Positions 30,018-55,487 of a DNA stretch of 64,000 bases are shown here, piece after piece (the stretch's first letter is position 1; every line of letters begins with the position of its first letter). The DNA is taken from the IMG/VR virus record IMGVR_UViG_3300020193_000004, positions 1 to 64,000 of that record. The stretch is one strand, 5' to 3'. The notes under the pieces were generated by a model. It was not told where the DNA came from. It saw only the letters and a program-made list of their open reading frames with translations, and searched no databases. The stretch comes from a virus. Both the position numbers and the translations under genes were made by a program.

Positions 30018-30239
30018 ATGACTCTGACACCGATCCGCGGCAGCGACTACGCGTCGAAGGCCGAGGCCATCCGGGCGTTCCGCGAGGGCGCGAACTTTCT
30101 GGTCCAACCCGACGACCAGCTCATCAACCGCGCCAAGGTCGAGGCGGCGGGCGTGAAGGCGGTCACGATCCGCTACGCCAACCTCACCCGCCTCGTCATC
30201 ATCGACCAGGCTGAGGACGGCAGCTGGGGAATGCCGTGA
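30018..30239 (+). CDS. unrecognised 73-aa protein
   Basis: The second of two nearby ATGs was chosen since its frame is protein-like (DYASKAEAIRAFREGANFLV; VKAVTIRYANLTRLVIIDQA). Stop overlaps the GTG of gyrB, so the two are coupled. Function unknown. Confidence 0.6.
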   Translation: MTLTPIRGSDYASKAEAIRAFREGANFLVQPDDQLINRAKVEAAGVKAVTIRYANLTRLVIIDQAEDGSWGMP

Positions 30240-32143
30240 CCAAGAAGTCCGGCTACGACGCCTCGTCCATCGAGGTGCTCGAAGGCCTCGACCCGGTGCG
30301 CAAGCGTCCGGGCATGTACGTGGGTGGGACGGGGAAGGACGGCTTCCACCACCTGCTCTGGGAGATCGTCGACAACGCAGTCGACGAGGCGCTGGCAGGT
30401 CACGCCACGCGCATCGAGGTCGAGGTCGTGAACGACCCCGTGCCGTCTGCCACGGTGAAGGACAACGGCCGTGGCATCCCCTTCGACACGCACTCGTCGG
30501 GCAAGCCCGCAGTGGAGCTCATCTTCACCACGCTGCACTCCGGCGGGAAGTTCGGAGGGGGCGCCTACAAGGTCTCCGGCGGATTGCATGGCGTGGGCAG
30601 CAGCGTGGTGAACGCGCTCTCCTCGCTCCTCACGGTGCGCGTCGCCCGCCAGGACCAGGTCTACACGCAGGACTTCTCCCGGGGCGTCCCGAAGAAACCC
30701 AAGATCGCCCGGGCAGGGAGGGTCGCGCACGGCACCACGGTCTCCTTCGTACCGGACACGGAGATCTTCGGGAAGCAGGAGTTCGACCTGGCGCTCATCC
30801 GCGAGCGCATCCGCGTCAAGGCGTACCTCACCCCCGGGGTGACGTTCGTGCTCGGTGAGGAGGAGTTCTGCTACCGGGGCGGGCTCGCGGACATGCTCGC
30901 TGCTCGCGTCTCCGAGGAGGAGATGGTGCCCGTGACCGAGTTCCCCTTCCTGCTCTCCGTGGACGGGCTGCAGGTGGCACTGACCTGGACCATGGATCCC
31001 CGTCCTATGGACGAGATGCTCGAGGCCTTCGCGAACGGCATCCCGACGAGGGACGGAGGCACGCACGTCGCGGGCCTGAAGACCACCGTGGCCGCCGTGG
31101 TCCGTGACTACATGGAGGACCACGGCCTGCTGCCGCGCAAGCCCGTCGTCGAGGCCGATGACGTGCGAGAGGGGCTGGTGGGTGCCATCCACGTGCTCGT
31201 CGAGAACCCGCAGTTCCAGGGCCAGACGAAGGACCGCCTGAACAACCCAGAGGTGCAGAGCACCGTGTCCGGCGAGATACGCCGGGCCCTCAAGGCATGG
31301 CTCCAGGCAAACAACGTGCAGAGCCAGCGCCTGGCCGAGCGCGTCGTCGAGGCCGCACGCGCGAGGACAGCTTCACGCGCAGCCGTGTTCGAGGTGCGGC
31401 GGAAGTCGCCCACTTTGCGGCTCACCCTACCCGGCAAGCTCGCCGACTGCACGTCCACCGAGCCGGAGCAGACCGAGCTCTTCATCGTCGAGGGGGACTC
31501 CGCCGGCGGGAGCGCGAAGCAGGGACGGGACCGGGACATCCAGGCCGTCTTGCCCATCCGAGGCAAGGTGCTGAACGTCGCCGACGTCTCGCTGAACAAG
31601 ATCGACGCGAACCAGGAGCTCTCGAACCTGATCCAGGCACTGGGGTGCGGGTTCGGCCCGGATTACGATCCCGAGGGGCTGCGCTACGGCAAGGTGATCC
31701 TCATGGCGGACGCCGACGTGGACGGACACCACATCTCGACACTGCTCCTGATGTTCTTCTTCCGCGCGATGCCGCAGCTCATCCGGGCCGGGCGCGTCTA
31801 CCTGGCATGTCCTCCGCTGTACAGGATCGACGCCGGCAAGGCCACGTTCTGGGCCATCAGCGACGCGGAGCGGGACGCGTATCTGTCCTCGCTCCCCCGG
31901 AGGATGCGCGAGGAGGCGCAGGTGTCGTACTTCAAGGGCCTCGGTGAGATGCCCGCAGCCATGCTGTACGCCACCACGATGGACCCGAAGCAGCGGCGCC
32001 TGCAGCGGGTAGAGATCCCGGACGGGCAGGAGCTCGCCACGGCCGCCATGATGCAGGACCTCCTCGGCCCAGACGTCCGGATGCGCCTGTCGTACATCGA
32101 GACGGCCAGCGAGGACATCGAAACGCTCGACCTTCACCTGTGA
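30236..32143 (+). CDS. gyrB: type II DNA topoisomerase B subunit (GyrB/ParE-like)
   Basis: 635 residues, full length for a compact GyrB/ParE. GHKL ATPase motifs: RKRPGMYVGGTG, EIVDNAVDEALAG (catalytic Glu, Asn), NGRGIPFDTH and GGLHGVGSSVVNAL. TOPRIM motifs: EGDSAGGSAKQGRD (Glu) and DADVDGHHI (Asp-x-Asp), then YFKGLGEM near the end. Needs an A subunit for strand passage; none lies in this window, so it may pair with a phage GyrA elsewhere or host GyrA/ParC. GTG start coupled to the previous gene. Confidence 0.93.
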   Translation: MTKKSGYDASSIEVLEGLDPVRKRPGMYVGGTGKDGFHHLLWEIVDNAVDEALAGHATRIEVEVVNDPVPSATVKDNGRGIPFDTHSSGKPAVELIFTTLHSGGKFGGGAYKVSGGLHGVGSSVVNALSSLLTVRVARQDQVYTQDFSRGVPKKPKIARAGRVAHGTTVSFVPDTEIFGKQEFDLALIRERIRVKAYLTPGVTFVLGEEEFCYRGGLADMLAARVSEEEMVPVTEFPFLLSVDGLQVALTWTMDPRPMDEMLEAFANGIPTRDGGTHVAGLKTTVAAVVRDYMEDHGLLPRKPVVEADDVREGLVGAIHVLVENPQFQGQTKDRLNNPEVQSTVSGEIRRALKAWLQANNVQSQRLAERVVEAARARTASRAAVFEVRRKSPTLRLTLPGKLADCTSTEPEQTELFIVEGDSAGGSAKQGRDRDIQAVLPIRGKVLNVADVSLNKIDANQELSNLIQALGCGFGPDYDPEGLRYGKVILMADADVDGHHISTLLLMFFFRAMPQLIRAGRVYLACPPLYRIDAGKATFWAISDAERDAYLSSLPRRMREEAQVSYFKGLGEMPAAMLYATTMDPKQRRLQRVEIPDGQELATAAMMQDLLGPDVRMRLSYIETASEDIETLDLHL

Positions 32144-41815: not shown

Positions 41816-42709
41816 GTGCCGTACGAAATCGAACACACCACCGTGGAACTGCCCCTCGACACGATTGCGGTCGGGCGGAACATCAAGAACATCCGAACGG
41901 TGTTCAACGACGACAGCACCGTGGAGCTCGCGAAGAGCATCTTCCACGACGGACTGCTGAACCCCCTGGTGGTCATGCCGACCACCGACCCCGAGAGCGG
42001 AGAGGCGATCATCGAGCTGGTGTGTGGCGCCCGGCGTATGCGCGCCATCAGCTGGATCCGCGAGAACCTCGACCCGGACTGGAGCGCCGGAGAGGTGCGG
42101 TGCACCCAGTTCGCCGGCACCCTCGAGGACGCCAAGCTCCTAAACGGCGTCGAGAACGTCGAGCGCGAGAACGTCGACGAGGTCGACACCTGCGCCTGGC
42201 TCTACCACATGGTCGAGGAAGAGGGCCGGACCCAGGATGACCTCGCCGAGCGGATGCACCGTAGCGGGCAGTGGGTCTCGCTCCGCCTCACCGTGCATCG
42301 CAAGGGCAGCGACGAGCTCAAACAGGCCCTGCGCGAGGGGCTCATCTCCATCAGCGCGGCGTACGAGCTCGCGAAGAACCTGTCCAAGGAAGACCAGGAC
42401 AAGCGGGTGAAGAGGGCTCGCACCAACGCGGAGAAGCTCATCACCCTCGAAGAGGCGACCACCGCCGGCGACCCGGACAGGGTGCCGCGCCCCAGCAAGA
42501 AGAAGATTGCCGAGATGCTCGCGAAGGCCGAGCAGGCGTCGGCGAACCTGAAGAAGCGGAACGCGCACGGCACGGCCATGGGCCTCCGCTACGTCCTCGG
42601 TCTCTGCTCCGAGGACGAGGCGACCCGAGCGATCGAGTTCGAGCCGGAAGAGGAACCGTCCGGCGGGAACGAGAGGACCGACGACGCCGAGGACTCCAAG
42701 GAGGAGTGA
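41816..42709 (+). CDS. ParB-like nuclease/partition-type protein (297 aa)
   Basis: GTG chosen because GGAGAG lies eight bases upstream; an ATG 63 bases earlier is possible. The ParB/Srx N-terminal domain shows LAKSIFHDGLLNPLVVMP and ELVCGARRMRAI (the GxRR box). It is followed by a central HTH region (RTQDDLAERMHRSGQWVSLR; ISISAAYELAKNLSKEDQDK) and an acidic tail. ParB-like phage proteins bind DNA or CTP, and some cut DNA. It heads the run that includes the AAA+ and VWA proteins. No ParA is nearby, so classical partition is unlikely. Confidence 0.75.
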   Translation: MPYEIEHTTVELPLDTIAVGRNIKNIRTVFNDDSTVELAKSIFHDGLLNPLVVMPTTDPESGEAIIELVCGARRMRAISWIRENLDPDWSAGEVRCTQFAGTLEDAKLLNGVENVERENVDEVDTCAWLYHMVEEEGRTQDDLAERMHRSGQWVSLRLTVHRKGSDELKQALREGLISISAAYELAKNLSKEDQDKRVKRARTNAEKLITLEEATTAGDPDRVPRPSKKKIAEMLAKAEQASANLKKRNAHGTAMGLRYVLGLCSEDEATRAIEFEPEEEPSGGNERTDDAEDSKEE

Positions 42710-42711
42710 GG

Positions 42712-42861
42712 ATGTTCACGTGGTTCAGCACTCGCGTAGTGCTCGGCGTCAACCTTCGTACGGGCGAGGCAGTACTCTTCCTCGTCGACTTCGATGTCCG
42801 AGGGCAGCCGAACTACACCCCGCTCGCCAGTGGCTACGGAAACCTGGCTGCGGCAGCGTAG
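42712..42861 (+). CDS. unrecognised 49-aa protein
   Basis: ATG two bases after the ParB-like gene's stop, AAGGAGG upstream. MFTWFSTRVVLGVNLRTGEA then VLFLVDFDVRGQPNYTPLAS. Followed by a strong terminator. Function unknown. Confidence 0.55.
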   Translation: MFTWFSTRVVLGVNLRTGEAVLFLVDFDVRGQPNYTPLASGYGNLAAAA

Positions 42862-42883
42862 ACCACATCCACCCCACAGCAGG

Positions 42884-42920
42884 ACGGCCCCGAGGCGACT
42901 CGGGGCCGTTTCTGTTTGCT
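42884..42920 (+). terminator. rho-independent terminator
   Basis: ACGGCCCCGAG pairs perfectly with CTCGGGGCCGT around GCGA, followed by TTCTGTTTGCTT. The most canonical terminator in the window. Confidence 0.85.
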
Positions 42921-42951
42921 TACAACCTATACAACTACATGGTGCTCTCAC

Positions 42952-44001
42952 ATGCACGAGATCGCGGACATCCGCCGCATCGACACCGCCCTGCTCCGCG
43001 CACGGCACTTCCCGACATACCAGAAGACCGGGCTCTTCGACATCCTCGGCAAGCTGGCGTGGAAGTCGCCGCTCATCCTCAAGGGTCCGAAGGGGGCCGG
43101 CAAGACGCTCGGTGTCGAGCAGTGGGCTTACGAGAACAAGGTGCCCTTCCTTAGGAAGAGCTGCACCGCGGACACCGGTGACCGTCAGTTGCTGGGCGCG
43201 CACACGCTCAAGAGCTTCACCGAGAGCTACTTCAGCCTGGGCGTTCTCTCCACCGCCATCGACGTAGCGAACCAGACGGGCCGGTGCCTTCTGGTCCTCG
43301 AGGAGATCAACGCGCTCAACGAGGAAGCGCAGAAGGTCGTCAACTCCATCGCCGATTACCGGCGCGAGGTCGACCTGCCGCACGTGGGCATGGTGTACCG
43401 CCTCAACGACGAGGAGGTGTCCCCCTTCGACGGCAAGGTCGTCGAGCTGGAAGCCATCAACGACTACCAGACCTCCCTGGTGATCGTGAACGCGCTCGAG
43501 GAGGAGGTCCATGAGCTGAAAGTGGCGACGCTCCTCCTCCGCCCGGAGGTGGTGCTGAACGCCGTCGTCAAGAAGGGGGAAGCCCTCTCGGATCGTCCGC
43601 AGCTCTGGGTCGTCGGTACGATGAACCCCGGGTACGGCGGCACCTACGACCTGAACGAGGACTTCCGGTCCCGCTTCAAGTTCATCGAGGTCGGCTTCAT
43701 GGACGACGCCAAGGAGACGGCCGTGCTCCACGGGAAGTTCCCGAGCAAGCCCACGGCGGCGGAAGAGGCGTTCATCCGACACCTCCGCTCCTTGGCGAAG
43801 GAGACCCGCGGCGGGAAGTACGGGTACGCGCTCTCGCTGCGCGACCTCGAGCAGGTGATCGAGGACTACCTGTCCCTGCTGTCGCTCCCGCTGGCGCTCA
43901 AGATGCTCGAGGGGAAGTTCGACTCCCAGTACACCAACGACCTCCAGGCGCGCGTGAAGAGCGTCTTCAGCGTGGACCTCACGCAGGTGACCCTGCTGTG
44001 A
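42952..44001 (+). CDS. MoxR-type AAA+ ATPase (349 aa)
   Basis: Walker A GPKGAGKT (residues 45-52), Walker B LLVLEEIN (113-120), sensor-1 region VGTMNPGYGG and a following RSRFKFIEV with the arginine-finger zone match the MoxR/CobS clade of AAA+ ATPases. These work with a VWA-domain partner as remodelling machines that insert metals or unfold targets. Such a VWA protein is encoded 1 kb downstream, so the two probably form one complex. The ATG lacks a strong ribosome site. Confidence 0.85.
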   Translation: MHEIADIRRIDTALLRARHFPTYQKTGLFDILGKLAWKSPLILKGPKGAGKTLGVEQWAYENKVPFLRKSCTADTGDRQLLGAHTLKSFTESYFSLGVLSTAIDVANQTGRCLLVLEEINALNEEAQKVVNSIADYRREVDLPHVGMVYRLNDEEVSPFDGKVVELEAINDYQTSLVIVNALEEEVHELKVATLLLRPEVVLNAVVKKGEALSDRPQLWVVGTMNPGYGGTYDLNEDFRSRFKFIEVGFMDDAKETAVLHGKFPSKPTAAEEAFIRHLRSLAKETRGGKYGYALSLRDLEQVIEDYLSLLSLPLALKMLEGKFDSQYTNDLQARVKSVFSVDLTQVTLL

Positions 44002-44219
44002 GCGATCTCATCAAGAAGCCGAAGAGCCTGTATTGGCGCCAACGGCACGGGCCCGACGACGGACCCTTCTGCGGCGAGTGCGGTGAGCCGGTGATGCTCC
44101 TGGCCACCGACTTCACGTACCTGCCCGCGTTCTACGTGTGCATCTCTGCCAACTGCGGGTGGATCGGACAGATCGGCGTCGGCCCAGTACCGGATCTTAC
44201 CGATAAGGAGGAGCGTTGA
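43998..44219 (+). CDS. zinc-ribbon protein (73 aa)
   Basis: GTG start overlapping the AAA+ gene's stop by four bases. CGECGEPV, then C-x4-C (VCISANCGW), forms a zinc-ribbon. Placed inside the AAA+/Dam/VWA run and coupled to both neighbours. Function unknown. Confidence 0.6.
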   Translation: MSDLIKKPKSLYWRQRHGPDDGPFCGECGEPVMLLATDFTYLPAFYVCISANCGWIGQIGVGPVPDLTDKEER

Positions 44220-44794
44220 TGCCTGATTACGACGCAACGACAGCGTCGAGGAAGGGGGAGAAAGTCCTCCGCCACGGCATCTCCACCAAGAACTTCTGGG
44301 GCACGCCCGGAGACGTGTTCCAGGAGCTGGACAAGGAGTTCGACTTCGACCTGGACGCCGCGGCCGAGAGGGGGTCCGCGAAGTGCAGCGACTGGCTCGG
44401 GCTCGATCATCCGGATCCGACCAGACGAGACTCCCTTGGAGGGCCTTCCTGGCCCGGGCTGCGGTCGTTCCTCAACCCGTCCTACTCGCCCGACGGCGGT
44501 ACGCTCTTCCGCTGGACAGTACGAGCCCACAGCGAGTCCAAGAACAAGGAGCACGTGGTGTGTCTCCTGCCTGGGACGGCGGACACGGACTGGGCGAACT
44601 ACTGCTTCGAGCACGCCGACGAGATGCGGTTCACGCCGCGCATTGCGTTCATCGACCCCAACGGCGGGCGAACGGCGCCGATGGGAGGTTCGCTCGTGGT
44701 GGTGTTCCGCAAGGAGCCGATCTGGAGGACCACCCTCTACCTCGACCATGCCTACGTGACCCTCGGCTACGCGCCGTGGAAGAAGGGGAAGTGA
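44219..44794 (+). CDS. phage-type DNA adenine N6 methyltransferase (191 aa)
   Basis: AAGGAGGAG precedes the ATG. NFWGTPGDVFQELDKEFDFD then LDAAAE matches the start of the phage Dam family (PF05869), and SFLNPSYSPDGGTLFRWTVR is its motif IV, here NPSY in place of the usual NPPY. A later TADTDWANYCFEHADEMRFT and RIAFIDPNG complete the family pattern. Would transfer a methyl group from SAM to adenine, typically masking phage DNA from restriction. Confidence 0.8.
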   Translation: MPDYDATTASRKGEKVLRHGISTKNFWGTPGDVFQELDKEFDFDLDAAAERGSAKCSDWLGLDHPDPTRRDSLGGPSWPGLRSFLNPSYSPDGGTLFRWTVRAHSESKNKEHVVCLLPGTADTDWANYCFEHADEMRFTPRIAFIDPNGGRTAPMGGSLVVVFRKEPIWRTTLYLDHAYVTLGYAPWKKGK

Positions 44795-44973
44795 TGAACG
44801 GCCGCACCGGTGGCTGGATCTGCACGAGCCACGTAGTGGAGTTCTACCCACTTGACCCACGCATGCCCGCGCTCCCTCCCCCGCTCCCGGAGCCACTTCG
44901 CCCGTGGGTACCGGCCATCGCCAAGACGCGCTTCCTCACGCGTTTCCACCAACTCAAGGAGCGGCTGCAATGA
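44794..44973 (+). CDS. unrecognised 59-aa proline-rich protein
   Basis: ATG overlaps the Dam stop by one base; its stop overlaps the VWA gene's start. MNGRTGGWICTSHVVEFYPL, then a proline-rich middle (PALPPPLPEPLRPWVPAI). May exist mainly for coupling; function unknown. Confidence 0.5.
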   Translation: MNGRTGGWICTSHVVEFYPLDPRMPALPPPLPEPLRPWVPAIAKTRFLTRFHQLKERLQ

Positions 44974-46901
44974 TGACCACGCAGGGACTCGGCGTAGCGC
45001 CGACTCGTCCACCCCTCGACCTCGGACCGATGACAGGCCCGCCCGAGTACATCCGCCAGCGTGCGGAGAACCTGGTTCGCGCGTTCGCGGGCCTGCTCGA
45101 CGTGCCGGAGATCAAGCTCGTCGACAGCTTCCCCGAGGGCGGGAAGACGGACTGCTTCAGCACCATCTGGGTGCCGATGCAGGACCCGGAAGGCTACCTC
45201 GTCACCGAACACGAGCTCTCCCACTGGCTCTTTGAGACCGACTGCGTCGCCACGACCAAGGTCGTCGAGAAGATCTCCAGCCGGCTGCTGAACGCCGCGG
45301 GGCTGAAGATGGGCACGGACGCTGCCCTGGCCTACGAGAAGCACCTCGGGAAGATCGTCCACCACCTGTGGAACATCCTCGAGGACTGGCGGTGCTGCTG
45401 GGCGTGGACCCGCCTGTACCCCGGCGGAGGGGCACTGCTGCAGCAGCGGTGGCACGACATCTCGGAGCATGAGGTACCGAAGGAGGCGCTGAAGCAGAAC
45501 CTCGTGACCTGCCTGGGCGCCTACGCCGTCGGCGTCGACGAGCCGGACGTGCCGCAGGCCTTCAAGGACTGCAAGAAGGCGATGCGCCGGGCCCTGAACC
45601 TCGTGGAGGGCGTGGACGCGATGGCCTGCCTGGCCATCACCTCGCGCCTCATCGACGAGATCGGGGACGCCCTCCTGGACAACAATCCTCCGCCTCCGCC
45701 CCCTCCGCCCGGTGGTGGGGGTGGTGGGCAGGGGTCGTCTCCCGCGCAGCAGCAGCAGCAGAAGCTCCAGCAGGCGCTCCGGCTGCTGAAGCTCCTGTGT
45801 GGCGCGGTGCCCAGGAGCGGGCAGTTCGCCCTGAAGGACAAGGGCCAGGGCATCGGGGACGCGGACATCGCCGACCCGCCGGAGCGGGAGAAGCTGCGGC
45901 GGGAGAGGACGGAGGGGCGACTGGTCACCATCGACCGCCTTCTCGGAGCAGACGACAAGGAGACCGACGAGTCCGGGATGACGCCCTTCGGCCTCATTCT
46001 GGCCCAGGGCGGGGAGAGCATGGAGGCGCGACTCGAGGCTGCACGGGCCGCCATGCTACGTCGGCTGGACACGCCGGACGAGAGCAACGCGGCCGCCCAC
46101 CTCGGCTGGTCGCGCGAGGCGGGGATCCCCATCGTGCACGTCAAGGCGCAGCGGGATCTGCCGCCCCCGACGCACGTGGGCTACGAGAACCGGCGCATCC
46201 TCGAGCAGCTCCGCATGCAGAAGCGGAGGAAAAAGGACTTCGACGGCGAGCTGAACACCGAGCGGCTGCTCTCGGCGATCGGCGCCGGCGAGCTCGATCG
46301 CCCGCTGTACGACAAGCTGGTCCGGGTCCCGCAGTTCGAGCTCCTCTTCGTGCTCGACGTCAGCGGGTCGATGACGATGGGCCAGGCGATGGCGCTCTCC
46401 GAGCGGGCGATCGCCGACTCCGTCTTCGCGGTCCAGGCCATCCGGTCGAAGGCGTACATGTGGGGCTTCTCTGACAAGCTCTACATGTTCGACAAGCCTG
46501 GGTCGCCGACGACGGCCGGGATCCTCTATGGCTCGACCTGCACGGTACAGGCGCTCGATGTCGCGCACAAGTGGGGCAAGAAGGCTCCAATGAAGCGAGC
46601 GGTGATGCTCGTGACCGACGGGTGGCCCACGAGCGTGCGGGCGCGGAATAGCACGGGCAACCCGCTCACGGACCTGCACGCCGTGCTGTCCGAGATGCGC
46701 GAGAGCAAGATCCCGCTCTCCGTACTGGCCATCCAGCACCAGGGACACGCCCTGGAGCAGGCGGTGAAGCAGTACGACATGGCATTCGGGCCCGGCGGCT
46801 ATGGCATGCTCGGGACCTTCGACGACCTGGCCAAGGAACTCCCCAAGGCGGTGCGAATCCTCGCGTCTGCCCACATCCAGAAGGGACTGACACGTACATG
46901 A
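44970..46901 (+). CDS. VWA-domain protein with HExxH metalloprotease-like motif (643 aa)
   Basis: Tandem ATGs follow AAGGAG. The N-terminal part has EHELSHWLF with HELSH at residues 81-85 and LEDWR at about 137-141, together a zinc-metalloprotease-like site. A Pro/Gly/Gln linker (PPPPPPPPGGGGGGQG) sits around residue 245. The C-terminal VWA domain has the MIDAS motif DVSGSMT near residue 462 and VTDGWPTS. This layout resembles CobT-like or metallopeptidase VWA partners of MoxR ATPases. With the AAA+ gene upstream it probably forms a two-component remodelling or proteolytic machine; the target is unknown. Confidence 0.8.
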   Translation: MMTTQGLGVAPTRPPLDLGPMTGPPEYIRQRAENLVRAFAGLLDVPEIKLVDSFPEGGKTDCFSTIWVPMQDPEGYLVTEHELSHWLFETDCVATTKVVEKISSRLLNAAGLKMGTDAALAYEKHLGKIVHHLWNILEDWRCCWAWTRLYPGGGALLQQRWHDISEHEVPKEALKQNLVTCLGAYAVGVDEPDVPQAFKDCKKAMRRALNLVEGVDAMACLAITSRLIDEIGDALLDNNPPPPPPPPGGGGGGQGSSPAQQQQQKLQQALRLLKLLCGAVPRSGQFALKDKGQGIGDADIADPPEREKLRRERTEGRLVTIDRLLGADDKETDESGMTPFGLILAQGGESMEARLEAARAAMLRRLDTPDESNAAAHLGWSREAGIPIVHVKAQRDLPPPTHVGYENRRILEQLRMQKRRKKDFDGELNTERLLSAIGAGELDRPLYDKLVRVPQFELLFVLDVSGSMTMGQAMALSERAIADSVFAVQAIRSKAYMWGFSDKLYMFDKPGSPTTAGILYGSTCTVQALDVAHKWGKKAPMKRAVMLVTDGWPTSVRARNSTGNPLTDLHAVLSEMRESKIPLSVLAIQHQGHALEQAVKQYDMAFGPGGYGMLGTFDDLAKELPKAVRILASAHIQKGLTRT

Positions 46902-48261: not shown

Positions 48262-48523
48262 GGTCTCACCGAAGGCCGAGCGGTACCTGGAGCGCACAGC
48301 CCGCATCCTGTCACGGGACGCGGGCCGACGCCTCAAGCCGGAGGATGTCCTCGAGCTCCTGGTGGAGCTGGCGATCGCGGACGAGGGACTCTACGACCCC
48401 GAGACCGGGGCGTCGCTCAGTAGTACACGGGCTCGGAGCCAGAGCGAGAGAGTCCGAGGCTCAGAACCTTCTGGGCGGTTCGCGCTCCAGCACCTAAGCC
48501 AACGCCTTCGGGACGAGGATTGA
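48251..48523 (+). CDS. unrecognised 90-aa protein
   Basis: GTG start inside the endonuclease gene's end. The first 58 residues look real and helical (PKAERYLERTARILSRDAGR; PEDVLELLVELAIADEGLYD), reminiscent of small DNA-binding proteins. The last 30 residues read across the convergent gene and look like antisense, so the true stop may differ. Confidence 0.45.
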   Translation: MRLEVSPKAERYLERTARILSRDAGRRLKPEDVLELLVELAIADEGLYDPETGASLSSTRARSQSERVRGSEPSGRFALQHLSQRLRDED

Positions 48524-51500
48524 CCGCCTGGTCGGCGGTTCTCTTTAGGGTGGCCAGCCCCAGGCCCACTGCTCCAGTACCGAGCGCCCCGTAGCGGACC
48601 TTCTCAGGGATAGCGTTCCAGTGTGTACCGAGCTCGCGCAGGATGTCTTCCGCACCTGCCGCTTTCACCACCCCTGTGGCTGCGGGCGCAGCACCTGCCT
48701 GCACCGGACGAGACAGCTTCGGGAACTCGATGGGCTTGGTCAGCGCTCTGGCGATGCGGTTTGCCGGACGCGTAGGGTCCACCGCATACTCAGAGTGCTC
48801 CGCGAGGCCCATGGGCACCTGCACGCCGTGTGCTTTCAACACCCCCACGGACTGCCGAACATCGTCCACGCTCGGCAGTCCGTGGATCCCGCGCTCACGT
48901 GCTGCAGCACCCAGTGCCTGCGCCTGTTCGTAGTGCCCGACGACATGGGGGTCGAACGCACTCAAGATCCCCTTGCTGACGGGGTGCAGGCCGCGTTCGC
49001 CCCTGGTTCCGGCAACCAGGCCCGCATGCGCTGCCCCCTCGTAGTACGGACGGAATACCTGCTTCAGGCCTGGGATTTTCGTCCCATATCGCCCGAGGAG
49101 GTGTGCCTTGGCGATGCCTGCGGTGGCAGCCAGCGCCTCTGGAGACGCGAAGGCATAGTGCAGTATGTCGTAGAGGTTCGCCTGTTTTATTGCAGCTGCG
49201 AGCGGTAGCTTGCCGGTGAAAAGGGGTTGTCCTTCTCTCCCCGGGACCGCCTCAAGTGCAGTACGGTTCCCATAAGTCTTCACGACACCAGGCACCTTAT
49301 CAATGGTGTAACCCTGTGTCTTTCCCAGTGAACCCCACACCCGCTGAGCGGCCTCCGACACTTGTTCACCGCTCTTTAGCTCCTGATTCGGCAAGCGCCG
49401 CATGACCTCCCCATACAGCTTCTTTCCCAGACCAAACCCCTGAAACTCGTCATTGATGTGGGTACCAACGATACGACCGTTCAACGTCTCCATATAGCCG
49501 ATCGGACGCCCATTCAGATGCATAGTATGGTCGACCAACCCCGGAAGATATTCGTGCGCTTTGGACACGACCTGCACTGATCGACGCAGGCGACTCCCCG
49601 CCAGCTTCTGCCAGTTGCCGCGGAAGGGGTTGATCGGGATGTGCTTGCCCTGATCCGGGTTCAGGCGAGGGGCGGCGAGCCGCGGCTGCTTCATGCCAGG
49701 CACGCGCGGCCGCTCCCCTTCGTCTCCCACTCCAGGGAGCTCCGCGGCGAGCTTCACACTCCCTTGCTTGGCCCAAGGACTCGAGGCCACCTGCAGGGTG
49801 GGCGCCGGCGGGCGCTGCGTCGGTATCGGGGTCTGCTGCTTGCTGGCGTACGCCTTCAGCGCGATTCCCCCTGTCAGCGCACCAGCCCCAAGGAGGATCT
49901 TGCCCTTGTTCCCGGCTACGAACCCGCCAACACGATTGAGCCCGCTCCGCAGAGCACTGCCAACTCCTCCATCGGCATGCGCCGCGGTGTTCCGTACAGC
50001 CAGAGCAGTATTGGCGGTAGCCGCTTCTGCAGCGGGCGGCGGAGGCGTCACGATCCGTGCGCGCCCCTGCGCGTCGAAGTGCGGGATCCGCGCGGCCAGA
50101 TCCTTCGACCGCTGTGCAGCTACGGGGTCCACGACGGGGCGAGGGGGACGCTCCACGCCCACCCACGGGACCGTGGGGGCCTTGCCCGGGTTCTGCAGGA
50201 CGTTGTGGATCTGATGCTCCGTACGGAAGGCCAGCCGTTTCACGGCAGCGCCTTGGCGCAGGGCCTCTTCAGGAGAGCTCGCCTTCAGTGCGTCGGCCGC
50301 TCCGCGCTGCAGACGGTCGTACCGAGCGGCGATGGCCCTCTGCTTTGCCTCCTCCGAGATGGCGACCTTCTCGAGGGACGACAGCACGGCCGAGCCGACA
50401 GGCACCTCTGCGAGGTTGGACTTCCCCGCGGTCTTCTGGAGGACCCCGAACGACCTCTCTGGTACAACACGTGCTGCATGTGCATGTGCCTGTCGTGCGA
50501 ACTCTTCGGAGGACTGCCCGAAACGTGCCTTCTGCGTGACCACCACTGGCGCTGCACGGCCAACCACGTCGAGCTCGTCAGGTATCACCTCAGCGTACAT
50601 GTGACGCCCCCGCTGCCTTACACGCACGCGAGGGAACCTCCGCGCCCCTTGTTCTGTCGAGCTGTACGCAGGAGAAGCACCCGCCGACACTGAGGCACTG
50701 CTGATAGCTTCCTCTACTTCGGGACCAGCGGCCTTTCGTCCATTCTTGAAGTAGATGCCTGGGCCTTCGTTGTCCAAGGCTTGCCCGAGCAAGAAGGTGT
50801 CCCCCGGCTCAGCCCACTTCGTCCTTGCGAGCGCCGCAGGGGTAACTGCCGCTCCGAGTACTCCACCGAGCAATCCTCCAGCAAGAGCGCCGCGAGTACG
50901 GTTTTTCTTGTCAAGAGCAGCACCGGCTCCAGCACCTGCAAGTCCAAACCCGAGCCCACCAGCAATGCGTGCGCGTAGGGGCGTAGCTACGAGTCCCTCG
51001 AGGGACGACAGTACATTGGCTGCAGTCTTGGAAGAGTTCTGCGAGAACCCGAGACGGTTGAGGGCGCTGGCCCTCTGCTTTGCCTCCTCCGAGATGGCGA
51101 CCTTCTCGAGGGACGACAGCACGCCGGAGGATTTCTGTGCTCGTCGCGCATGTCCCCACAGGCCCTTCGCCAAGGCCAGCCCGACCATCCCTCCAACGAT
51201 GCCCCGCTCTACCGGCGTCCAGCCAGCGATCTTCTTGCCGTGGTTCTGGCGGTCGTGGAAGATTCCGGCCGTCTTGGGCGGGGCCTGCGGTACTGCAGGA
51301 TGTACGGCGTCCCAGAGCTTCTTGACGCCATAGCCGCCCAGGTGGTGGGCGGCGTGGAAGATTCCGGCCGTCTTGGGCGGGGCCTGCGGTACTGCAGGAT
51401 GTACGGCGTCCCAGAGCTTCTTGACGCCATAGCCGCCCAGGGCCGCGGCTCCTGTCGCCAGTGCAGCCCCACCGGCGAACCTACCAGGACGCGCACGTGC

Positions 51501-52238
51501 GTACTCCGCGATCTCACGCAGACCGACACCTCGATAGTTCTTCGAGCCCTTGATGTACTCTGTCGGTATGGAGTCGACCGCGTGCTCGGCATATGACTGG
51601 AGACCGTGCTGTGCGCGCGCAGCGAGCTCGTTGTCCCTGATCAGCGCTGCCTGCTGGTGTGCATTGAAGTCGAGAAAATGGGCGCCCTTTAGACGGTCTA
51701 ACGTACGCTGCCTCCACGCGTGAAACCCGCCTGCCGTTTCTGGGTTCTCCTGTAGCGGAATCTTCCAGGTTGGTACGGACATCTTGACCGTAGCGGCTCC
51801 GCCTTCTCCAGGGCGGAGCTTAGCGGCCTGAGCGGCGTACATTGGCGCCTTCAGGTTCTTGGACGTCGTCACGTACGCCTTGTCTGCCCACTCCTTTGGG
51901 AAGTTGCCCTTGTTAATAACGCCGGCGGCGCCACCCCGGTTTGACGGCAAGAGCCCCTGTTCGCGGATCCGTGCCGCAGACTCCGCCGTAGTGCCGTGGT
52001 AGAGCGCCTGCCGTCCTGTGACCCGTGGAACCGACATCTTGGCGAGCACGCCACCACCTGCGAGCGCTCCAACTCCCGTAACGGCATCATCGGTCGTGGA
52101 GGGCTCTTGCCGGTCCGCACCCAGCTTCTGGAGCTCGTCCCCGAAGCTGGTCCAGTGGACGGTCTCTGCTGCGAGCTCGGTAATGCTCGCCTCCTTGGTC
52201 AACGGCCCCGCGAGGAGTCGATATAGACGCGCACCCAT
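48417..52238 (-). CDS. giant mosaic protein: ADP-ribosyltransferase-like and GNAT-like domains (1273 aa)
   Basis: ATG with GGGAG nine bases upstream. Residues about 75-235 resemble an ART domain: ALYHGTTAESAARIREQGLL (His81), AYVTTSKNL (Tyr122) and SIPTEYIKGS (Glu227), a possible H-Y-E triad. Residues about 877-975 are GNAT-like, with GTHINDEFQGFGLGKKLYGE as the acetyl-CoA loop region; nearly the same module occurs in the adjacent helicase. An identical 18-residue VLSSLEKV...AKQRA segment occurs at 373-390 and 618-635, and a 33-residue unit is tandemly duplicated near 266-328. Hydrophobic Gly/Ala stretches recur. Virion-packaged effector is the leading idea; inference only. Confidence 0.7.
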   Translation of the reverse strand: MGARLYRLLAGPLTKEASITELAAETVHWTSFGDELQKLGADRQEPSTTDDAVTGVGALAGGGVLAKMSVPRVTGRQALYHGTTAESAARIREQGLLPSNRGGAAGVINKGNFPKEWADKAYVTTSKNLKAPMYAAQAAKLRPGEGGAATVKMSVPTWKIPLQENPETAGGFHAWRQRTLDRLKGAHFLDFNAHQQAALIRDNELAARAQHGLQSYAEHAVDSIPTEYIKGSKNYRGVGLREIAEYARARPGRFAGGAALATGAAALGGYGVKKLWDAVHPAVPQAPPKTAGIFHAAHHLGGYGVKKLWDAVHPAVPQAPPKTAGIFHDRQNHGKKIAGWTPVERGIVGGMVGLALAKGLWGHARRAQKSSGVLSSLEKVAISEEAKQRASALNRLGFSQNSSKTAANVLSSLEGLVATPLRARIAGGLGFGLAGAGAGAALDKKNRTRGALAGGLLGGVLGAAVTPAALARTKWAEPGDTFLLGQALDNEGPGIYFKNGRKAAGPEVEEAISSASVSAGASPAYSSTEQGARRFPRVRVRQRGRHMYAEVIPDELDVVGRAAPVVVTQKARFGQSSEEFARQAHAHAARVVPERSFGVLQKTAGKSNLAEVPVGSAVLSSLEKVAISEEAKQRAIAARYDRLQRGAADALKASSPEEALRQGAAVKRLAFRTEHQIHNVLQNPGKAPTVPWVGVERPPRPVVDPVAAQRSKDLAARIPHFDAQGRARIVTPPPPAAEAATANTALAVRNTAAHADGGVGSALRSGLNRVGGFVAGNKGKILLGAGALTGGIALKAYASKQQTPIPTQRPPAPTLQVASSPWAKQGSVKLAAELPGVGDEGERPRVPGMKQPRLAAPRLNPDQGKHIPINPFRGNWQKLAGSRLRRSVQVVSKAHEYLPGLVDHTMHLNGRPIGYMETLNGRIVGTHINDEFQGFGLGKKLYGEVMRRLPNQELKSGEQVSEAAQRVWGSLGKTQGYTIDKVPGVVKTYGNRTALEAVPGREGQPLFTGKLPLAAAIKQANLYDILHYAFASPEALAATAGIAKAHLLGRYGTKIPGLKQVFRPYYEGAAHAGLVAGTRGERGLHPVSKGILSAFDPHVVGHYEQAQALGAAARERGIHGLPSVDDVRQSVGVLKAHGVQVPMGLAEHSEYAVDPTRPANRIARALTKPIEFPKLSRPVQAGAAPAATGVVKAAGAEDILRELGTHWNAIPEKVRYGALGTGAVGLGLATLKRTADQAVNPRPEGVGLGAGARTAQKVLSLGLSRSGSEPVYY
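50333..50388 (-). repeat. 56-bp exact direct repeat, copy A
   Basis: Identical to 51068-51123 within the same gene. It encodes the VLSSLEKVAISEEAKQRA peptide. Confidence 0.85.
51068..51123 (-). repeat. 56-bp exact direct repeat, copy B
   Basis: Identical to 50333-50388. Same frame, same peptide, 735 bases apart. Confidence 0.85.
51254..51441 (-). repeat. in-frame tandem duplication, period 99 bp
   Basis: Two 89-bp identical copies (51254-51342 and 51353-51441) separated by ten bases, giving a repeated GGYGVKKLWDAVHPAVPQAP-containing 33-residue unit. Exact identity suggests a recent duplication or an assembly artefact. Confidence 0.85.
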
Positions 52239-52661: not shown

Positions 52662-55487
52662 CTACTTCACTGAGACGGCACGGGCATTCGAGCCCACAGC
52701 GAGCCGGTGGAGCTTCTTCTCCTCCTGCTGTACCTCGAGACCGCGCAGGAGGTGGATCATCTGCTCATCCGTGAGGCGGGCAGAGCGCCTCGCACGTGCC
52801 CCAGTCGTGGAGAACTTCGGGTCCTTGTAGCTCGACCACGCGTTCATGCCTCCCAGAACACCGCCACCCAGGAGACCAATCGCCGCGGCGCGTGGCAGGG
52901 CATCCTTCATCGGAAGGCCGCTCTTCAGGCTCTGGACGGCCGCGGTGACTACCTGCGTGTAGCCTGTGATGAGCGCACCGAGTGCTCCGACCGCCAACGT
53001 CTGCTTCAGGATCTCCCTCTTGCGCTCGTCATCGGTCTTGGCCTTCGACACCAGGCCGTCTCCGCTCCCGGGCTTCGCTGCCTCCCGGTAGTAGGCTCGC
53101 AATGCCTCGACGTACTCCTGCTCACGCTCCTGCAGCTCCTTGGGGAGCACCACCTTGGTGGGGTCCACCGCCTCCTCGAGGTGAGGGGCGAACTCCTTCA
53201 TGTAGGCCTCCATGATCGGCCTGTCGGACTTCACCAGGCGGTAAGGCTGCATGGGGAGGCGCTGCGCTGCAAGGCGGCGCTCCTTCGTCTTCTGGTCCGC
53301 TGCGGTCTTGATCGCCGCCGCCTCTGGGAGGGACCCGCGGTAGGACCACGGGCGCTCCTCCCTCAGCATCTGCGCCTTGATCTCTGGAGTGAGACCCTCC
53401 CAGGGCATCCGCTGTGAGGTCCTCAGCATCCCATTGTGCTCGTACTGGTGCGACCAAGGCGCCTGCTCCACCTTCCACCCGTGGCCGCCCTTCCCCAGGG
53501 AGTTCCAAAGACGAGTGGCCTCCGGAGAGACTTGTCCGTCGCTCTTCAGGGACGCGCCAGGCATACGACGCGCAACCTCCCCGTAGAACTTCCTTCCGAG
53601 CCCGAGGTTCCGGAACTCCTTCTCGATCTCGGTACCCATGATCTGCCCATCACGGGTCACCATCCGCCCAGCGGGCTTCCCACCGACCAGGAGCGTCCAG
53701 TGTGTCCGATCTGGATGCACCGAGCTTACTTCAGAGACCACCCGAGTCATTGCACGTAGACGACTCCCTGCCATCTTGGTGGCGCCACCCCCGGCGCGAG
53801 CCGCGAGGCCGTCCTCGAGGAGGTCCAGCATGTCCTCGACGGTGTCGCAGGGAGCCTCGGCGGTCTTGTCGAGGTTGCCGCGCAGCTGCTTGTTGCGCTC
53901 GTCCTTGTTCCACGCCACCTCGTAGGCCCACTCGTCCGGCGAGCGCTCACGCTTCAGCGGGTTGTAGAAGACGGGCTGGCCCTCGAGGACGCGACTGAGC
54001 ATGCCGGACGGCGCGATCAGGTTCATCGTGTCCTTCGCGACCTGCGTCTTCGAGAGAGGGACGCGCGTGACGTAGCGACGGATGAGGACGTGCCGCTGGT
54101 CCTCGGGACGGTGCGCCTGCCCGCCGGCGCGCACGCCGCGGGCCTCGGCCTGGTGGATCTTCTCGGGGTTGAAGTGCCCGTCGACGTTGGCGACGAAGGT
54201 GGTGTTGCCCAGGTTCAGTCCCTCGCCGCCAGCGGAGGAGAGGAGGATGACCTTCTTCGTCCCCGCCTGGTAGTCGGCGACCGCCTGTGAGCGGCTCTGC
54301 TCGGTGGAGCCCGCCTGCCCCTTGCCCATGAAGATGCCGTGCGCGATGCCGCGGTCCTTCAGGCCTTGGCTGAGGACGTCGACCCCACCCTGGATCATGT
54401 TCGAGTAGATGATGACCTGCCCGTCCGGCGTCTCCTTCAGGTGCGTCTCCACGTCGTCCAGCACCCGCTTGATCTTGGGGGAGCGCTGCGCGGACTCCGC
54501 GAGCGTCACCGACTTGTTGACGGTGTGGATGGCGTTCGAGACCTGGCGCGCCTGGGTCATCTTGTTGAAGATGTTGTTGATATCGTTAGTCTTGAGCTTC
54601 GACGAGCCGAAGCGGAACTTCAGTGCCGTCACCGGGTCCATCTTCCCGACGACGTACTGGTAGAGCTCCTGCTGCTCGGGGGTCATGTCGACCTTGACCG
54701 TCTCCACGGTCTTCTTCGGCATCGCGCCGCCACCGGTCGAGGCGTCGACGTGGTGGATGTAGGGGTTCAGCAGCAGGCGCACGACGGGGGTGTTCTGGAG
54801 CTTCCCGTCCTCGGTCATGAACCGCCGCTCGAAGTTCTCCTTCGTACCGAGGTGGTGCTGCCCGTCCGTCATCGCGTCGACGAGCGGGACCAGGTCCGCC
54901 GGCGTGTTGCTCACGATCGAGCCCGTCAGCCCGATGAAGTTGCGGTGATGCTTCCGCGCCTCGCGGAGCGCCTTACCGGTGATCCCGATGTTCTTGATCT
55001 TGTGGAGCTCGTCGTAGATGACGGTGTCCGCCCCCGAGGACTTGATGTACTTCTCGGGGTTGGTGCGGAAGAGGTCGTAGCTGACGACGTGGTAGCGCGC
55101 AGACGGGTCCGGGTCGTCTACATGACGGCCCGTGCCGTTGGCGACCTCCTCGGCGTTGCCGAACACCGCGGCCTTGTCCTTCGTGAACTTGTGCACGCCC
55201 TCGTTGGTGAAGTTCTTCCGCAGGGAGGCCGGGGTCACGATGAGCGCGCGGTCGGCCATCCCGTTCTGGCGGAGACGATCGAACGCCGCGATCGCGGTGA
55301 CGGTCTTCCCGGAACCGACGGGGTGGCTCAGGATGAGGTTGCCGTTCTGCCGCACGGCCTTCTGGACGGCGTCCTCCTGGTGCGGACGGAGCTCAACGCC
55401 AGCCTGCAGGGCCGAGCCCACAGCGGCCGCGAGCTTCTGCCCCAGGTTGACGAAGATGTGGAAGCCCTGCCGCTCTCGCATGGACAT
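52662..55487 (-). CDS. SNF2-type helicase with internal GNAT-like module (941 aa)
   Basis: Motif I HPVGSGKTVTAIAAFDRL (55-72), motif II YDELHKIKN (158-166), motif III GLTGSIVSN (186-194), then ILLSSAGGEGLNLGN (414-428, motif V) and HQAEARGVRAGGQ (445-457, motif VI) define an SF2/SNF2 translocase. Residues about 573-675 hold a GNAT-like module (TEIEKEFRNLGLGRKFYGEV) matching the 1273-aa protein. Hydrophobic C-terminal stretches (829-884) follow. Virion-carried SF2 helicases such as DarB-type proteins protect incoming DNA in some phages; the same role is possible but unproven here. Confidence 0.8.
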   Translation of the reverse strand: MSMRERQGFHIFVNLGQKLAAAVGSALQAGVELRPHQEDAVQKAVRQNGNLILSHPVGSGKTVTAIAAFDRLRQNGMADRALIVTPASLRKNFTNEGVHKFTKDKAAVFGNAEEVANGTGRHVDDPDPSARYHVVSYDLFRTNPEKYIKSSGADTVIYDELHKIKNIGITGKALREARKHHRNFIGLTGSIVSNTPADLVPLVDAMTDGQHHLGTKENFERRFMTEDGKLQNTPVVRLLLNPYIHHVDASTGGGAMPKKTVETVKVDMTPEQQELYQYVVGKMDPVTALKFRFGSSKLKTNDINNIFNKMTQARQVSNAIHTVNKSVTLAESAQRSPKIKRVLDDVETHLKETPDGQVIIYSNMIQGGVDVLSQGLKDRGIAHGIFMGKGQAGSTEQSRSQAVADYQAGTKKVILLSSAGGEGLNLGNTTFVANVDGHFNPEKIHQAEARGVRAGGQAHRPEDQRHVLIRRYVTRVPLSKTQVAKDTMNLIAPSGMLSRVLEGQPVFYNPLKRERSPDEWAYEVAWNKDERNKQLRGNLDKTAEAPCDTVEDMLDLLEDGLAARAGGGATKMAGSRLRAMTRVVSEVSSVHPDRTHWTLLVGGKPAGRMVTRDGQIMGTEIEKEFRNLGLGRKFYGEVARRMPGASLKSDGQVSPEATRLWNSLGKGGHGWKVEQAPWSHQYEHNGMLRTSQRMPWEGLTPEIKAQMLREERPWSYRGSLPEAAAIKTAADQKTKERRLAAQRLPMQPYRLVKSDRPIMEAYMKEFAPHLEEAVDPTKVVLPKELQEREQEYVEALRAYYREAAKPGSGDGLVSKAKTDDERKREILKQTLAVGALGALITGYTQVVTAAVQSLKSGLPMKDALPRAAAIGLLGGGVLGGMNAWSSYKDPKFSTTGARARRSARLTDEQMIHLLRGLEVQQEEKKLHRLAVGSNARAVSVK

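Follow-up and report, generated by a model that had tools for sequence, protein, structure and literature searches.

The 64,000-nucleotide stretch analysed here (the window), which belongs to the incomplete 115-kilobase (kb) IMG/VR record IMGVR_UViG_3300020193_000004, carries at positions 41816-46901, all on the plus strand, genes for a ParB-like protein, an AAA+ ATPase, a zinc-ribbon protein, a phage N6A-methyltransferase and a protein combining an HELSH motif with a VWA domain. The AAA+ and VWA genes are the constant core of this run and, judging from their sequences, are very probably a highly divergent member of a family of CobS/CobT-like AAA+/metallopeptidase-VWA pairs found on mobile elements. 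The reading favoured here, with moderate confidence, is that the two proteins work as an AAA+-driven metalloprotease-VWA remodelling machine whose protease is active; the further proposal that this machine acts on DNA-bound proteins is tentative.

MoxR ATPases pair with VWA proteins as remodelling machines, and an earlier note on this DNA, made from the sequence alone, had pointed to such a pair within a run of five genes. The five plus-strand genes are confirmed, the AAA+ and VWA genes do form a conserved pair like those of MoxR-VWA systems, and the two motifs singled out in the VWA protein, HELSH and LEDWR, are both part of the family signature. The same run is found in relatives of 183 kb and 188 kb and in a 48-kb fragment close to the 183-kb one, at 65-72% identity, and the order of the ParB, AAA+ and VWA genes is kept in all three, so that the lack of co-occurrence in related phages that the note had named as grounds for abandoning its proposal does not apply. 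Viral and genome scans with an alignment of the window locus returned these three viruses and two cellular loci, and nothing else. The core features, with the evidence for each, are as follows.

42952..44001, plus strand: AAA+ ATPase of 349 amino acids (aa), ATG start, CobS-like/MoxR group (AAA_5 3.9e-13; phrog_249 3.2e-18; hidden Markov model (HMM) of mobile-element CobS)
43399..43587, plus strand: stretch of the AAA+ gene containing some 50 extra residues that are specific to this lineage and lie after Walker B and before sensor 1 (alignment; profile match in two pieces)
44970..46901, plus strand: metalloprotease-like and VWA protein of 643 aa, mobile-element CobT-like type (profile comparisons of both halves)
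45210..45224, plus strand: HELSH (HExxH) zinc-site motif, residues 81-85 (invariant in the N-domain alignment)
45378..45392, plus strand: LEDWR motif, residues 137-141, whose Glu is predicted to be the third zinc ligand in a gluzincin-type site (E and R both invariant in the N-domain alignment)
46356..46622, plus strand: metal-ion-dependent adhesion site (MIDAS) of the VWA domain, from DVSGS (463-467) to TDG (549-551) (motif reading and conservation)

The AAA+ ATPase

The AAA+ protein contains a Walker A motif GPKGAGKT (residues 45-52), a Walker B motif LLVLEE (113-118), NPG (225) and RSRF (239), and scores 96 bits (E 4e-29) against the HMM built from mobile-element CobS proteins. Its divergence is seen in a BLAST-level search of 50,697 phage records, in which neither the AAA+ nor the VWA protein had a match at E 1e-5. 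When the threshold was relaxed to an E of 10, the VWA protein gave chance matches, and the AAA+ protein matched, among others, proteins annotated as CobS, cobalt chelatase subunit or AAA-ATPase in viruses of Rhizobium, Ochrobactrum, Gordonia, Brevibacterium, Synechococcus and haloarchaea, with a CobT-like or ‘peptidase’ gene among the neighbours of these relatives. Gut contigs L017 and L018, which were used in the AAA tree only, carry AAA and VWA-like genes and were set aside as a different kind, since no HExxH was seen in those frames.

The metalloprotease-like VWA protein

The GTG at 44904 that the earlier note had taken as the start of the VWA gene is too early, and the start is placed at the ATG at 44970, which has AAGGAG just upstream. 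The VWA_2 match of the protein (1.8e-4) falls just under the family cutoff, and a solved-structure search with the VWA profile gave chance matches only; the family assignment comes from profile comparison of each half. Against the mobile-element CobT-like profile the VWA half aligns with an hhalign probability of 98.3 and an E-value of 1.1e-14, and the N half with a probability of 95.9, an E-value of 5.5e-9 and a score of 57.7, the maximum in 50 column shuffles being 18.4. The composition of the protein alone would lead one to expect 0.02 HExxH motifs, and HELSH, LEDWR and the MIDAS DVSGS are all conserved in L003 and L004, the loci of related lineages that were compared with the window locus. 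In the N-domain alignment of 12 sequences, those outside the window clade are 13-20% identical to the window protein, and the only invariant positions are the H, E and H of the motif, the E of LED and the R. An HExxH with a downstream Glu is the pattern of gluzincins and minigluzincins, to which the predicted metal site conforms at the level of the sequence motif.

The N domain of the Lentisphaera marina homologue was modelled by AlphaFold2 with a predicted local distance difference test (pLDDT) of 82. Against the PDB this model matches selecase best, a minigluzincin metallopeptidase (probability 0.92, target template modelling score 0.52, E 0.34), with jannalysin, another metallopeptidase, at rank 19; its matches among viral models are phage CobT/VWA proteins, one of them from HHTV-2. 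Membership of the DUF2201 VWA/metallopeptidase group was considered for the window protein and dropped, as PF13203 did not match it; scans of the window genome with PF13203 and PF06213 returned none.

A family of pairs on phages and plasmids

Four features mark the family, and the window pair has all of them: a CobS-like AAA+ protein, an N-terminal HExxH...LE[DE]xR, a C-terminal MIDAS DxSxS, and a conserved, close pairing of the two genes. The annotated CobT-like or ‘peptidase’ neighbours of CobS-like genes have the same layout, with an N-terminal HExxH, a downstream LE[DE]xR or close variant and a C-terminal VWA DxSxS; in HHTV-2 the same parts occur with the N domain encoded as a separate gene (HEVQH ... 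NVLED). As to the pairing, the mobile-element CobS HMM detects an AAA gene just upstream in all nine of the IMG/VR CobT-like loci whose upstream DNA is long enough, and in annotated phages and plasmids the two genes are adjacent or within a few genes of each other in nearly all cases.

The earlier note had called a phage version coupled to ParB and Dam unusual. Phage versions of the pair as such are not: hundreds of phages and plasmids carry the family, and publications of 2021 present phage examples as cobaltochelatase (PMC8651126) or as a MoxR-vWA-metallopeptidase pair (PMC7824862). In phages the genes mostly go by the names CobS/CobT or ‘peptidase’, and the core genome of cyanophages includes cobS (PMC3037559). 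The likeness of the window pair to these phage and plasmid pairs (cyanophage cobS and ‘peptidase’, phrog_249, the NCBI ‘cobaltochelatase CobT-related protein’) lies in the gene pairing, HExxH...LE[DE]xR and the VWA DxSxS, whereas the window lineage differs in having a VWA protein without a BLAST-level match, the AAA+ insert of about 50 aa and a variable slot with zinc-ribbon, Dam or HD genes. The MoxR-vWA pair of group 2.2 jumbo phages (PMC7824862; ASV44729/ASV44728) is alike in its described architecture and pairing, a likeness taken from the description and probably reflecting common descent.

The pair is also present in 219 of 5,426 Escherichia coli genomes, always on plasmids; a search of the E. 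coli genomes with the pair of a Vibrio plasmid gave no near match. In Lentisphaera marina (L020 907-4479, 5738-9362), a trio of AAA, middle and VWA genes stands between an AAA+/subtilase gene pair and an integrase, which suggests that the trio is part of an integrated element; the AAA+/subtilase pair looks like a defence module.

Relation to cobaltochelatase

According to the usual GenBank label, and to a study that treats viral CobST as cobaltochelatase and holds that cobT has been mistaken for a peptidase (PMC8651126), the pair would be the chelatase subunits CobS and CobT, using the CobN of the host and boosting its vitamin B12 production. The homology behind this label is real. The VWA half of mobile-element CobT aligns with true CobT with an hhalign E-value of 3.9e-31, the CobT of CRP-810 scores 179 bits against TIGR01651 (a scan of viral contigs with this CobT confirmed nothing), and in the AAA tree, whose rooting is uncertain and in which the branch leading to the window clade is long, true CobS nests as one twig within the mobile-element set.

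What separates the two groups is the metal-site motif. HExxH is present in 29 of 29 mobile-element proteins and in none of 36 true CobT, where the 29 include several near-duplicates, the 36 were sampled from one class, the alphaproteobacteria, and the searches themselves drew in part on the motifs (L030-L039 were found with six search patterns, one of which contained HExxH, and the pattern used for L019 and L020 contained the LED motif). The segment of true CobT that aligns to the HExxH region reads roughly RGxxDxxALRxRxHD. Both types stand side by side in one Methylocystaceae genome (G004; L019, L022), which encodes a true CobT lacking HExxH as well as a CobT-like protein of the mobile-element type that has HEAAH.

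The genomic context also speaks against a chelatase. Neither CobN nor a class I/II ribonucleotide reductase turned up in the window genome, an incomplete record, or in its 182-188 kb relatives; E. coli lacks CobN, as a control search showed, yet 219 of its genomes carry the pair; and Lentisphaera marina has the pair without CobN. The window protein, moreover, matches neither PF06213 (CobT) nor the cut-off of TIGR01651. The AAA+ and VWA domains of cobaltochelatase (CobNST) are homologous to those of the window pair, but true CobT works with CobN and has no HExxH, whereas the window protein has HELSH and no CobN was found with it. Because of the HExxH split and the presence of the pair in E. coli and Lentisphaera marina without CobN, a B12 role is unlikely for the mobile-element family, and we regard chelatase subunits as a highly improbable identity for the window pair.

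The motif test that separates the mobile-element versions from the true chelatase CobT is the main addition of this analysis, and applied across the family it turns the standing annotation into a testable question. If the distinction is right, the widespread description of phage ‘cobS/cobT’ as an auxiliary metabolic gene for vitamin B12 is a wrong annotation, and an abundant protein-remodelling machine of phages and plasmids carries no assigned role. In the deposited record of Escherichia phage Cyrano, the pair (L075 5974-9413) is labelled as dimethylbenzimidazole phosphoribosyltransferase and cobalamin synthetase, apparently through confusion with other enzymes called CobT and CobS.

A candidate protease-remodelling machine

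The favoured machine would consist of two gene products, a CobS-like AAA+ protein from the MoxR group and its CobT-like partner, which combines a predicted N-terminal gluzincin-type metalloprotease domain and a C-terminal VWA domain. By analogy with known AAA+/VWA systems, the AAA+ protein would form a ring and dock on the VWA protein, ATP hydrolysis would pull the bound target apart, and the metalloprotease domain would then cut the unfolded target. The computation itself shows the family to which each gene belongs, the conservation of the pair and of the metal-site motif, and the conserved Walker and MIDAS motifs. The neighbourhoods of the relatives suggest that the targets may be proteins on replicating or incoming DNA, handled in the manner of Wss1-Cdc48: of the 14 annotated contexts, 12 (13 when ParB in HHTV-2 is counted) have genes of replication, recombination or repair next to the pair, a tally that relies on depositors’ annotations and is not a controlled statistic, and the plasmid pairs lie near genes for RecT/Bet, a lambda-type exonuclease, RadC or a phosphohydrolase.

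Both Wss1 and Spartan are classed as minigluzincins, and together with the AAA+ protein Cdc48, Wss1 clears chromatin-bound proteins (PMC4559962). The comparison with these eukaryotic DNA-protein crosslink proteases (Wss1-Cdc48 and Spartan-p97) concerns the way of working, a minigluzincin-type protease joined to an AAA+ segregase in a chromatin or DNA context (PMC4559962). Sequence homology is not claimed, and the window pair differs in using a VWA adaptor, with no VIM or SHP motifs and no SUMO or ubiquitin. A broader scheme, in which the pairs of phages and plasmids are the prokaryotic equivalent of these systems, an AAA+ ring with a minigluzincin-VWA protease that strips proteins from DNA and cleaves them at replication or entry, CobS/CobT being a side branch whose protease site was lost on recruitment to B12 synthesis, is speculative and probably too strong.

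Several points weigh against an active protease with DNA-bound targets. We know of no family member for which an activity has been shown. The window N domain was modelled poorly (pLDDT 55) and its fold search gave no meaningful match, and the selecase match of the Lentisphaera domain is weak by its E-value. The third ligand is not universal, since in ICP2, which keeps HExxH, VVD stands where the LED glutamate would be, and the putative catalytic site could be structural only. The DNA-target step is drawn from gene neighbourhood and no other source, and is doubtful to that extent.

A structural site is what a rival explanation takes up, in which the metal bound by HExxH is structural and the pair does no more than unfold a partner or load metal into it. 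To our knowledge, the partners in the MoxR/RavA-ViaA, NorQ-NorD and CbbQ-CbbO systems are not proteases, and the PDB matches of the window AAA+ protein include NorQ/CbbQ and midasin, which would fit remodelling without proteolysis. A structural site would not need the catalytic glutamate, however, and this residue is kept throughout the mobile-element proteins while the flanks have diverged to the low identities given above; we consider this explanation unlikely.

Another explanation follows the study of group 2.2 jumbo phages, which proposed that a MoxR AAA+ protein and a vWA protein with an N-terminal metallopeptidase act in virion assembly (PMC7824862). The pair would fold or assemble structural proteins, and the metallopeptidase would trim them during maturation. 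That study describes the same architecture and cites a MoxR-vWA system required for archaeal virus tail assembly. Homologous pairs are found, however, on conjugative plasmids and on a bacterial chromosome beside an integrase, where no virion is made, and an annotated virion structural gene stands beside the pair in 0 of the 14 contexts tallied from depositors’ annotations. Because of the plasmid carriage and the replication and recombination neighbours, virion assembly is unlikely as the common role and not impossible in single phages; for the window pair itself it would be a rather unexpected function.

ParB, Dam and the variable slot

The genes around the core, listed below, vary between the lineages.

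41816..42709, plus strand: ParB-like protein of 297 aa, GTG start (ParB_N E=2.6e-6, KorB 9.4e-5; KorB/helix-turn-helix)
42712..42861, plus strand: 49-aa open reading frame (ORF), function not assigned, conserved in L003 (comparison with L003)
42882..42911, plus strand: intrinsic-terminator-like hairpin (stem of 13 bp, T-rich tail) between the ParB unit (ParB and the 49-aa ORF) and the AAA gene
43998..44219, plus strand: zinc-ribbon protein of 73 aa (cysteines; orthologue in L003, not found in L004)
44219..44794, plus strand: phage-type N6-adenine methyltransferase (Dam) (PF05869 2.5e-17; motif IV NPSY), present in L004 and absent in L003
44794..44973, plus strand: 59-codon ORF, probable remnant of an HD-phosphohydrolase gene (reading of translations; intact gene in L004)

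The run had been described as compact and mostly overlapping, which is true of the genes from AAA through VWA, as these abut or overlap, and not of the ParB gene, which is set apart by the hairpin. The ParB-like protein is 64-68% identical in L003 and L004, and a strong hairpin with a T-rich tail occupies the equivalent position in both, with a different stem sequence. Since this terminator-like element divides ParB from the AAA gene, with a placement common to all three lineages, the ParB gene is probably transcribed separately. Membership in a ParAB partition system would call for a ParA ATPase, and no ParA partner was found in any of the three genomes (G000, G002 and G003).

The slot between the AAA and VWA genes holds the zinc ribbon, Dam and the HD remnant in the window, the zinc ribbon and an HD piece in L003, and Dam and HD in L004. 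The HD-phosphohydrolase-like gene is intact in L004 (6927-7796), is reduced to its C-terminal part in L003 (7420-7614) and persists as a short remnant in the window. Dam, the zinc ribbon and the HD gene are thus exchangeable neighbours, and ParB and Dam are neighbours of the machine, not parts of it. On a Vibrio plasmid (L026), too, a phosphohydrolase gene comes next after the VWA gene. Motif IV of the window methyltransferase (residues 86-89, window 44474-44485) reads NPSY, and NPPY in the L004 orthologue; this difference may mean that the enzyme of the window is changed in function or no longer active. An alternative TTG start three bases upstream is possible for its gene.

These results leave little of the coupling to ParB and Dam on which the earlier note had based a possible DNA-linked protein-remodelling or counter-defence system: the coupling is weak, with the hairpin on one side, no ParA in the three genomes and no Dam in L003. 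A link to DNA is plausible from the neighbourhoods of the relatives and does not follow from ParB or Dam. For counter-defence there is no positive evidence. The distribution of the family on mobile elements, the Lentisphaera pair near its defence-like AAA+/subtilase genes and the presence of Dam in the slot in two of three lineages would be compatible with a counter-defence system tied to ParB and Dam, but Dam is optional, ParB is divided off from the AAA gene, neither the AAA nor the VWA protein had a good match to any PADLOC model, and literature searches gave no experimental lead; such a function is improbable. The MoxR-vWA ternary conflict systems (PMC7159879) share the AAA+/VWA couple with the window pair and differ in having a third component (VMAP, iSTAND or other), which was not seen next to it.

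Other genes in the window

On the minus strand, a 1273-aa ORF (48417-52238) has internal repeats (GGYGVKKLWDAVHPAVPQAPPKTAGIFH twice in near tandem; VLSSLEKVAISEEAKQRA twice) and no PHROG match. A 941-aa protein, also on the minus strand (52662-55487), has helicase matches (phrog_62 1.4e-56), with DarB-like antirestriction among the weaker ones, and its gene adjoins ORFs of 509 aa and 1508 aa, both without a PHROG match. The window further encodes the large subunit of a phage DNA topoisomerase II (30236-32143; phrog_543 2.5e-146) and an ATP-dependent DNA ligase (999-2378; phrog_114 1.2e-12).

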